The position numbers and the translations under genes were made by a program. Shown here in pieces: positions 27,167-30,194 of a stretch of 64,000 bases of DNA. The stretch's first letter is position 1, and each line of letters starts with the position of its first letter. Origin of the DNA: Sandaracinus amylolyticus (GTDB taxonomy: Bacteria; Myxococcota_A; Polyangia; Polyangiales; Sandaracinaceae); contig NZ_CP011125.1 of assembly GCF_000737325.1 (NCBI RefSeq), positions 3,410,001 to 3,474,000 on the forward strand. The letters are read 5' to 3'. The notes beneath the pieces are model-generated. The model did no database searches. It was not told the DNA's origin and worked only from the letters and a program-made list of their open reading frames with translations.

Positions 27167-28372
27167 ATGGAGACCAAGCCCCGGGTGATCGTGGTCGGTG
27201 GTGGGTACGCCGGTGTGATGGCGGCGCTGCGCGCGTCGCGTCGCCTCCGCCATCGCGGCGAGGTCGTGCTGATCTCGGATCGCGACGCGATGATCGAGCG
27301 CGTCCGGCTCCACGAGGCGGCGTCGGGCACCGTCGACCCCGCGCGTCCCCTCGCGACGCTGCTGCGCGGCACGCGGGTGCGGATCGTCCGCGGGCGCGTC
27401 GAGTCGGTCGATCGCGCCGGCCACGAGGTGACGCTCTCGAGCGGCGAGCGGATGCGCTTCGATCGCCTGATCGTCGCGATCGGAAGCCGCGTCGACGCGA
27501 GCGCGATCCCCGGCGCCGCGGAGCACGCGTTCACGCTCGAGCCCGACGCGGTCGCGGAGCTCGAGGTCGCCGCGCGCGACGCCGCGCAGCGCGAGGGGCA
27601 CCTCGTCGTGATCGGCGGCGGCCTCACCGGCATCGAGGGCGCGACCGAGCTCGCCGAGCGCCACCGCGGCCTCCGCGTGACGCTCGTGACGTCGGGCGAG
27701 GTCGGCCCCGGCCTCCACCCGCGCGCCGTCGAGCACCTGCGCCGCGTCTTCGCGCGCCTCGGCGTCACGCTGCGCGAGCACGCGCGGGTCGAGCGCGTCG
27801 AGGCGGGCGCGGTGGTGATCGCGGGCGAGCGCCTGCCCTTCGACGTGTGCGTCGGCGCGGTCGGCTTCGCGATCCCCGGGTCGCTGCGCGCCTGGGGCTT
27901 CCCGGTCGACGCGCGCGGCCGCGCCCGCGTCGACGCGATGCTGCGCCTCGAGGGCGCGCCCGACGTCTACGTCGCGGGCGACTGCGCCGCGCCGAGCGGC
28001 GTGCTCGGCTCCGCGGTCCCGTTCGGGTGCAAGAGCGCGATGCCGATGGGCGTGCACGCCGCCGAGAACGCGGTGCGCTCGCTCGGCGGCGAGCCCGAGC
28101 ACGCGCTCGACTGGTCCGACGCGACCTACTGCATCAGCCTCGGCCGCCGCGAGGGCCTGGTGCAGCTGATGGATCCGCGCGGCACCCCGCGCACGACCTT
28201 CCTGTCGGGCCGCCTCGGTGCGATCGTGAAGGAGATGATCTGCCGCTACACGGTGCGCAGCGTCGAGCTCGAGCGCGACGGCTGGTGGGAGTTCCGCTTC
28301 CCGCGCGTCCGCCTGCACGCGCTCCCGGCGCGCGATCCCGAGCGCCTCGCCGCGCCGCCGGAGGCCGCATGA
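27167..28372 (+). CDS. FAD-dependent NDH-2-like pyridine nucleotide oxidoreductase
   Basis: The 401-residue protein has the FAD-binding motif VIVVGGGYAGVMAAL, an NAD(P)H-binding motif LVVIGGGLTGIEGATELAER (about 145-165), and VYVAGDCAAP (the second FAD contact) near residue 270. The order and size fit type II NADH dehydrogenases and related quinone reductases, but there is no obvious C-terminal amphipathic membrane anchor beyond a hydrophobic patch. A good Shine-Dalgarno (AAGGAG) lies 10 nt before the ATG. It overlaps the ECF41 gene by ATGA; ECF41 genes are typically linked to oxidoreductase-type partner genes. Confidence 0.82.
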   Translation: METKPRVIVVGGGYAGVMAALRASRRLRHRGEVVLISDRDAMIERVRLHEAASGTVDPARPLATLLRGTRVRIVRGRVESVDRAGHEVTLSSGERMRFDRLIVAIGSRVDASAIPGAAEHAFTLEPDAVAELEVAARDAAQREGHLVVIGGGLTGIEGATELAERHRGLRVTLVTSGEVGPGLHPRAVEHLRRVFARLGVTLREHARVERVEAGAVVIAGERLPFDVCVGAVGFAIPGSLRAWGFPVDARGRARVDAMLRLEGAPDVYVAGDCAAPSGVLGSAVPFGCKSAMPMGVHAAENAVRSLGGEPEHALDWSDATYCISLGRREGLVQLMDPRGTPRTTFLSGRLGAIVKEMICRYTVRSVELERDGWWEFRFPRVRLHALPARDPERLAAPPEAA

Positions 28373-29361
28373 AGAACGACCCCGCCGCGCTCTACAGCGA
28401 GCACCGCTCGTTCCTGATCGGGCTCGCGTACCGGATGCTCGGCAGCGTCGCCGAGGCCGAGGACGCGGTGCAGGAGGCGTTCGTGCGCGCGCAGGGTGCC
28501 CCGAGCAGCCCGTTCAACGATGCCGCGAACGCAGCCGAGTCGGCATCGGCAGATGCCGAGCGCGGCGGAGATCGTGGCGGCGTCGGACGGGCTGCGACGA
28601 ACGATCGAGCAAGCAGAGCCGACGTGGCGTCGCCGCGCGCGTGGCTCGCGACGGTGGTCACGCGCATCTGCCTCGATCAGCTGCGCTCGGCGCGCGCGCG
28701 GCGCGAGCAGTACACCGGCGAGTGGCTGCCCGAGCCGGTGCGCACCGACGTCGCGGGCGCGGTGGTGCAGCCGCGCGATCCCGAGGACGCCGAGTCGCTC
28801 TCGCTCGCGTTCCTGCTCTTGCTGGAGCGCCTCTCGCCGCTCGAGCGCGCGGTGTTCCTGCTGCACGAGGTGTTCGACTACTCGCACGCCGAGGTCGCGG
28901 CGATCCTCGAGCGCGACGAGGTCGCGGTGCGGCAGCTGATGTCGCGCGCGAGGGCGCACGTGAAGGAAGGGCGCCCGCGCTTCCCCGCGGATCCCGACCG
29001 GCACCGCGAGCTCGTGATGCGCTTCGCGATGGCGATCGGGGAGGGCGATCTCGGCGGGCTGCAGGCGATGCTCGCGAAGGACGTGGTCGCGCGCTCCGAC
29101 GGCGGCGGTCGCGCGAAGGCGGCGCGCCGTGCGGTGCAGGGCGACGATCGTGTCGCGCGCTTCGTGGTCGGGCTGGCGCGCAAGGCGTCCGCGGACGTGC
29201 GCTTCGAGCTGATGGAGATCAACGGGCGCACCGGGATCGCGTGGAGCATCGCGGGGCGGCCGCTCGGGGTGATGGCGGTGACGATCGATGGGGATCGGAT
29301 CGTGGAGATCGATCTGGTGATCAACCCGGAGAAGCTCTCGGGGATCTCCGCGCGGGAGTAG
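28369..29361 (+). CDS. ECF41-family RNA polymerase sigma factor
   Basis: The 330-residue protein has sigma region 2 (EHRSFLIGLAYRMLGSVAEAEDAVQEAFVR, then SPRAWLATVVTRICLDQLRSARARRE) and region 4 (LSPLERAVFLLHEVFDYSHAEVAAILERDEVAVRQLMSRARAHV). A C-terminal SnoaL-like domain (about 212-330) follows. The ECF41 hallmarks are visible: WLPEP at 119-123, DGGGR at 244-248 and NPEKL at 319-323. In this group the C-terminal extension regulates the sigma factor in place of an anti-sigma factor. An extra segment of about 44 residues (43-86, Ala/Ser/Gly/Arg-rich) interrupts region 2. It is co-transcribed with the oxidoreductase gene. Confidence 0.9.
   Translation: MKNDPAALYSEHRSFLIGLAYRMLGSVAEAEDAVQEAFVRAQGAPSSPFNDAANAAESASADAERGGDRGGVGRAATNDRASRADVASPRAWLATVVTRICLDQLRSARARREQYTGEWLPEPVRTDVAGAVVQPRDPEDAESLSLAFLLLLERLSPLERAVFLLHEVFDYSHAEVAAILERDEVAVRQLMSRARAHVKEGRPRFPADPDRHRELVMRFAMAIGEGDLGGLQAMLAKDVVARSDGGGRAKAARRAVQGDDRVARFVVGLARKASADVRFELMEINGRTGIAWSIAGRPLGVMAVTIDGDRIVEIDLVINPEKLSGISARE
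28540..28559. repeat. Palindrome inside the ECF41 region-2 insertion
   Basis: TCGGCATC and GATGCCGA face each other across GGCA, within the codons of residues 58-64 of the sigma factor. The same TCGGCATC/GATGCCGA arms form the centre of the larger palindrome at 29447-29478. Confidence 0.6.
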
Positions 29362-29446
29362 GTCTCGGCGGGGGCGCGTGGCAAGGGGCCCTCGCTAAGC
29401 CTCGCGACCGGCTTGCAGTGACGGTGGGGCGTCGGGGGGCGGGATC

Positions 29447-29478
29447 GTTCTCGGCATCGCGTCCGCGATGCCGAGAAC
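29447..29478. terminator. 32-bp near-perfect palindrome downstream of the ECF41 gene
   Basis: GTTCTCGGCATCGCG (29447-29461) and CGCGATGCCGAGAAC (29464-29478) are perfectly complementary around a central TC. It lies 86 bp after the sigma factor stop. It could end transcription or be a protein-binding site; no T-run follows. Confidence 0.5.
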
Positions 29479-29667
29479 CAGGCGGGGACGTGGCTGCCGT
29501 CGGGTGGGTCGCTGCGGAAGCGCTCGGGCCCCCTGCCACGCGCCCTGCTGGTGAGGTCTCGGCCGCGCGCGGAGGGGAACGGCGCGCGGTGTGGTGGACC
29601 GACTCGCCCTTCGGGCATCGTGAGCCGATTCGCCGGGCTCGCCCTTCGGGCCTCGCCCCGATGTTGC

Positions 29668-30120
29668 GTCGTGCTCGAGGCGCGCGCGCTGCGCTCGACG
29701 ACGCTGTGCTGTGCTCGACGGGTCGCGCGCTGTGCTCGACGACGCTGTGTTGTGCGCGACGCGCCGCGCGCTGTGCTCGACGACGCTGTGTTGTGCTCGA
29801 CGGGTCGCGCGTTGTGCTCGACGACGCTCTGCTGTGCTCGACGCGTCGCGCGCTGTGCTCGACGTCGTTCTGCTGTGCTCGACGCGCTGCGCGCTGTGCT
29901 CGACGTCGCTCTGCTGTGCTCGACGCGCCGCGCGCTGTGCTCGACGTCGCTCTGCTGTGCTCGACGGGTCGCGCGCTGTGCTCGACGTCGTTCTGCTGTG
30001 CGCGACGGGTCGCGCGCTGTGCTCGACGGCGTTCTGCTGTCCTCGACGCGCCGCGCGTTGTGCTCGACGGGGGTTTTCCTGTGCTCGACGGGGGTTTTCC
30101 TGTGCTCGACGCGCGCTTTC
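29668..30120 (+). repeat. 41-bp tandem repeat (minisatellite), nine units plus edges
   Basis: Clear units start at 29709, 29750, 29791, 29832, 29873, 29914, 29955, 29996 and 30037, always 41 bp apart. A diverged unit precedes at 29668 and shortened copies follow to about 30120. Each unit is two half-units of 21 and 20 bp, both beginning CTGTGCTCGACG; the first continues in GGGTCGCGCG-like and the second in TCGTTCTG-like sequence. The last units carry GGGGGTTTTC instead. Confidence 0.9.
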
Positions 30121-30194
30121 CTGCGGCGGGCGGGCCGGGGGTCCGCGTTCGCGGGCCTCGCGCTCTGCGCGGGAGGTCGCCTACGTTCGCGCGC

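Follow-up and report, generated by a model that had tools for sequence, protein, structure and literature searches.

Most known cases of palindromic elements that lie in frame within protein-coding genes come from Rickettsia and Wolbachia, which raises the question of how often they shape proteins elsewhere. Rickettsia palindromic elements (RPEs) and the protein-coding palindromes of Wolbachia are non-autonomous, long stem-loops of about 105 to 146 bp that sit in frame in protein genes and are predicted to be compatible with the protein fold (PMC2229807, PMC10969869). REP elements are palindromes of 20 to 40 bp (PMC3733652). The locus described here resembles the “protein-coding palindromes” of Rickettsia yet belongs to an unrelated soil bacterium, Sandaracinus amylolyticus. 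It lies in a window of 64,000 nt (the whole stretch of DNA that was analysed; contig NZ_CP011125.1, positions 3,410,001 to 3,474,000) and involves two overlapping genes:

27167..28372, plus strand: FAD-type oxidoreductase gene, a typical ECF41 partner (open reading frame starting at ATGGAGACCAAGCC)
28369..29361, plus strand: ECF41/SigJ-type sigma factor gene, 330 aa, holding the insertion (NCBIfam and Pfam profiles, motifs, 5xe7)

Judged by its sequence features, the open reading frame at 28369 to 29361 encodes an ECF41 sigma factor of the SigJ type, as the preliminary description had proposed. TIGR02957 and PRK09636 (SigJ) both score above cut-off in profile searches with the 330-aa protein; Pfam recognizes Sigma70_r2 and Sigma70_r4_2, together with a weak SnoaL_2 match below its gathering score; a DGGG motif is present; and the nearest solved structure is that of M. 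tuberculosis SigJ (5xe7; E = 2e-46). WLPEP, a linker motif characteristic of ECF41 factors (Wecke et al., PMC3426412), occurs at residues 119 to 123, between sigma2 and sigma4. ECF41 genes are accompanied by a gene for a carboxymuconolactone decarboxylase, an oxidoreductase, or an epimerase (PMC3426412), and here a gene upstream on the same strand, whose oxidoreductase family was assigned by reading rather than by profile search, overlaps the start of the sigma gene by 4 nt. The locus is therefore like other ECF41 loci in its sigma2 and sigma4 domains, WLPEP linker, SnoaL-like C-terminal domain, and co-directional oxidoreductase gene; it differs in that helices 2.2 and 2.3 are separated by 37 additional residues, which none of the relatives examined possesses.

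These residues are the product of the following features:

28506..28616, plus strand: inserted palindromic element, 111 nt or 37 codons, residues 46 to 82 (empty site, match to a repeat family)
28505..28595, no strand assigned: long imperfect stem, 33-nt arms around the core (inverted repeat and RNA fold)
28540..28559, no strand assigned: core hairpin TCGGCATC-GGCA-GATGCCGA (the palindrome first reported, located in the sequence)

An insertion of 44 residues had originally been placed at residues 43 to 86; the insertion stands, whereas its size and limits do not. In a second genome of the genus (G002), the neighbourhood has the same order and the sigma gene lacks 111 nt at a single site, giving an orthologue of 293 residues versus 330 here. 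This orthologue is 91% identical: 45 aligned residues precede the gap, and residues 1 to 45 and 83 to 330 match at 91 to 96% identity. Residues 46 to 82 were set by this protein alignment, the DNA limits of the element being uncertain by 2 to 4 nt, and the window flanks, when joined without the element, equal the G002 site in length. Comparison with more orthologues, a check suggested at the outset, gave the same result: none of the 21 additional aligned relatives carries the insertion; they come from several phyla (including Myxococcota, Acidobacteria, Chloroflexi, Actinobacteria, Gammaproteobacteria, and Bacillota) and have a loop of about 10 to 15 residues after helix 2.2, compared with 48 here. 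The insertion is real and recent. With a net length divisible by three and no stop in frame, it leaves the reading frame intact and adds 37 codons; very G+C-rich hairpins are mostly free of stop codons. That a palindromic element was inserted in frame in the ECF41 gene, as had been claimed, is supported by the empty site in G002 and by related hairpins elsewhere in the genome.

The palindrome originally recognized within the insertion is indeed present, but it extends much farther than its 20-nt core, with the arms of the long stem occupying 28505 to 28537 and 28563 to 28595. Its RNA fold reaches −72.6 kcal/mol (z = −5.9). By self-palindrome score the element ranks 5th among 1,727 windows of the 64 kb, versus only 153rd by plain folding energy, a measure in which it is unexceptional because the DNA is very G+C-rich. 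The arm pair TCGGCATC/GATGCCGA occurs at two places in the 64-kb window (in the gene and downstream of it) when none is expected, and a genome-wide search for TCGGCATC N0-20 GATGCCGA found five places in 10,327,335 bp against none for the reversed control. With five genome places, the 8-nt arm pair does not mark a large family. We rejected the pair as a family signature, since cores vary among copies.

The family emerges instead from the whole element. When compared with its own genome by plain BLAST, the inserted stretch matches positions 6400289 to 6400387 (81% over 99 nt; E = 8e-19) and has a further partial match at 83%; this second copy, used as query, gives four good matches in G002. The copies served to build covariance models, which recover the BLAST loci and add a four-unit array and one more G002 locus, for about four to six loci in this genome and about five in G002; the window copy matches at E = 2e-20, with models that include the window copy itself. 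No convincing match was found with these models in other genera of the family. An exact degenerate pattern had no match in a species-level genome collection from which the records nearest the window's genome may have been excluded; with three mismatches allowed, the order gave no more than scattered matches, and exact matches were confined to the two genomes of the genus. Searches of Rfam gave no meaningful match, and those of phages and plasmids gave none. An integron attC site was also considered and set aside by eye, its end motifs being unfitting.

All copies are hairpins, 86 to 110 nt long compared with 111 nt in the window, and the best of them folds to −83 kcal/mol (z = −8.0). Other copies carry CCGGCATC or unrelated cores in place of the TCGGCATC core, and TAG precedes the first arm in most (as CTAG or ATAG). 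Across seven copies, 88% of cells in the stem pair and 16 of 34 pairs have changed on both sides; none of 500 shuffles reaches any of these values, and sliding the partner by one base abolishes the signal. The paired percentage leans towards the structure because the structure was derived from the same seven sequences, an explanation that does not extend to the two-sided changes. The two arms have therefore changed in concert, through selection on the hairpin or through self-correction of palindromes at replication. The array consists of four head-to-tail hairpin units of 107 bp that are 98% alike (genome 5153951 to 5154378; locus L155, 1387 to 1822); it has a hemL-like gene on one side and a Ser/Thr kinase gene on the other and is absent from G002. 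Of about 10 loci in the two genomes, the window copy is the sole one recognized inside a gene; the rest are intergenic, several of them occupying precisely the gap between the two stop codons of a convergent gene pair. At one convergent pair, a CAG hairpin in one species (L057, 1499 to 1616) is replaced by an unrelated hairpin in the other (L115; G002 1114239 to 1114363), each lying exactly between the two TAG stops.

An orthologous site is filled in one genome and empty in the other in three cases (the window; L111/L178; L155/L210), so that two copies besides that of the window are insertions relative to a clean empty site. Between convergent genes at G002 position 1426336, the element is flanked as CTAG–element–CTAG, versus a single CTAG in the window's genome; both genes take their stop codons from this CTAG, and an insertion of this kind need not be harmful. 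The target duplication of the 107-bp array is imperfect at best, and none is clearly visible at the window copy. Whole-genome searches with the element return short copies only, and no parent insertion sequence or transposase came out of them. A Y1 (IS200-like) transposase (PF01797) is missing from all three genomes of the genus searched, while the same search was positive in five control genomes; this makes the REP/RAYT route unlikely, and we set RAYT mobilization of the element aside on this ground. In 729 kb aligned between this genome and G002, there are 39 indels of 40 to 450 nt, many of which are hairpin-rich repeats of other families, which makes elements of this sort common to the genus at large. 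Polymorphic palindromic insertions of those other families include GGAGTGCTCGCC...GGCGAGCCGAT and GGGAGGGGTCTTGGAAGACCCCTCCC. When hairpin indels of the two genomes are set against gene frames, the spurious long frames that are plentiful at this G+C content obscure in-frame calls.

Downstream of the sigma gene and at the base of its promoter-reading loop, three more features bear on how the insertion is to be explained:

28618..28644, plus strand: codons inferred for the −10 specificity loop, residues ~84 to 92, ADVASPRAW (alignment on the conserved W with sigma-H)
29365..29560, no strand assigned: intergenic repeat of about 195 nt, distinct from the inserted element (other copies; kept in G002)
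29447..29478, no strand assigned: 32-bp palindrome at the centre of the intergenic repeat, a hairpin that varies among copies (inverted repeat and comparison of copies)

The preliminary description took the 32-bp palindrome for an intergenic sibling of the insertion. The same arms are indeed found in this palindrome, which lies 85 nt past the sigma stop codon, and having TCGGCATC...GATGCCGA twice within 1 kb, with no further pair in the window, is what would be seen if insertion and palindrome were two copies of one element. We nevertheless regard this as very unlikely: the downstream palindrome sits in the middle of another repeat, 195 nt long, of which the genome has about 10 other copies (e.g., at 10046222, 8054297, 1042953, and 4283884), whose central arms differ from copy to copy; that repeat sits at the same place in G002, whose sigma gene has no insertion; and the other copies of the inserted family have different cores. 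Most simply, the likeness of the two palindromes would be a coincidence between two hairpin-rich repeats. In the 195-nt repeat, the paired ends GGGCGCGTGGCA / TGCCACGCGCCC enclose a central hairpin whose arms vary among copies while staying complementary, and the predicted folds of full-length copies are extremely stable, at −127 to −142 kcal/mol. Directly after it (window 29671 to 30123) comes a 41-bp tandem array of 10.3 copies with TGTGCTCGACG motifs, followed by a 21-bp array. That the insertion is an assembly or sequencing artefact of a hairpin-rich region would fit its being carried by one genome only, but the chance of this is negligible, as the length difference is exactly in frame and the element is a recognized family member identical to no other copy, and hence not a mis-joined duplicate.

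What the 37 residues do to the protein is a separate question. In ECF factors, the flipped −10 base is held by the loop before the conserved region 2 tryptophan (W81 in sigma-H, the loop being residues 72 to 79), a loop that is disordered when no DNA is bound (PMC6411747). Region 2 was where the insertion had first been placed, and alignment on the conserved tryptophan (W92 here, W81 in sigma-H) locates it at the −10 specificity loop, with its end directly before the loop or within the loop's start. An altered promoter preference is possible, and if the segment changed how the −10 element is recognized or how the SnoaL domain regulates the factor, it might have been selected; its position beside the base-reading loop (PMC6411747) and an intact gene with a dN/dS relative to G002 of 0.29 outside the insertion agree with this. 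Selection is nonetheless improbable, the segment being low-complexity, conserved in no relative, and probably disordered: in a structure model, confidence is high for the two sigma domains and for the SnoaL domain, while the insertion has a pLDDT of 39 to 60, so low that a predicted partial helix at residues 48 to 64 was left uninterpreted. We similarly doubt that the gene is decaying and the insertion a neutral scar, even though 37 residues beside a functional loop could, going by PMC6411747, inactivate promoter opening. The frame is open over 330 codons, the other defining motifs are retained, and the dN/dS, which averages over the time before and after the insertion, is close to that of the upstream gene (0.39), which gives the sigma gene no look of a dead one. 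The insertion is most likely a tolerated, disordered or flexible segment, and the modelled sigma factor is probably folded and working despite it.

We consider it highly probable, then, that a MITE-like element specific to the genus inserted into the ECF41 gene and was kept as 37 codons of a folded, probably working sigma factor. A non-autonomous palindromic DNA element of about 110 bp would have entered the gene in this lineage, presumably moved by a transposase supplied in trans; as a very G+C-rich hairpin with a length divisible by three and no stop in frame, it could be retained in the coding sequence, where its residues would make up a flexible loop that links sigma helices 2.2 and 2.3 and adjoins the base of the −10 specificity loop. 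Such retention would reflect tolerance rather than benefit. It seems a long shot that a mobile hairpin has been domesticated here as a segment of the −10 loop, changing promoter choice, and that coding palindromes extend to very G+C-rich myxobacteria in this sense.

Compared with known systems, the repeats are best called a MITE-like palindromic family found only in this genus and, as far as the literature searched goes (most subscription papers lying outside it), new to it. Like bacterial MITEs, they are short, lack a transposase, pair at their termini, include one copy with a 4-bp CTAG duplication, and have the filled and empty orthologous sites described above; unlike them, each element folds over its entire length into a single hairpin whose arms covary. 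REP elements are likewise palindromic, and the TAG before the first arm recalls their tag tetranucleotide, but the elements here measure 86 to 111 bp and no Y1 transposase accompanies them. The likeness to the palindromes of Rickettsia and Wolbachia lies in size, a single long stem-loop, an in-frame position in a protein gene, and non-autonomy: 111 nt, the fold, and the covariation agree with an RPE, as do the 37 codons in the ECF41 gene. RPEs recur in many unrelated genes, as opposed to one in-gene copy among about 10 loci here, and the present family belongs to another phylum, is very G+C-rich, and also forms a tandem array; the likeness is one of form and position, and we do not class the family as an RPE. 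To the in-frame palindromes already described, the locus adds a new hairpin repeat family with covarying arms, from a genus in which two related genomes differ by many hairpin-rich insertions, and a bounded case, present in one species and absent from its sister at a defined empty site, in a host protein that is easy to assay and has the insertion beside its promoter-reading loop.
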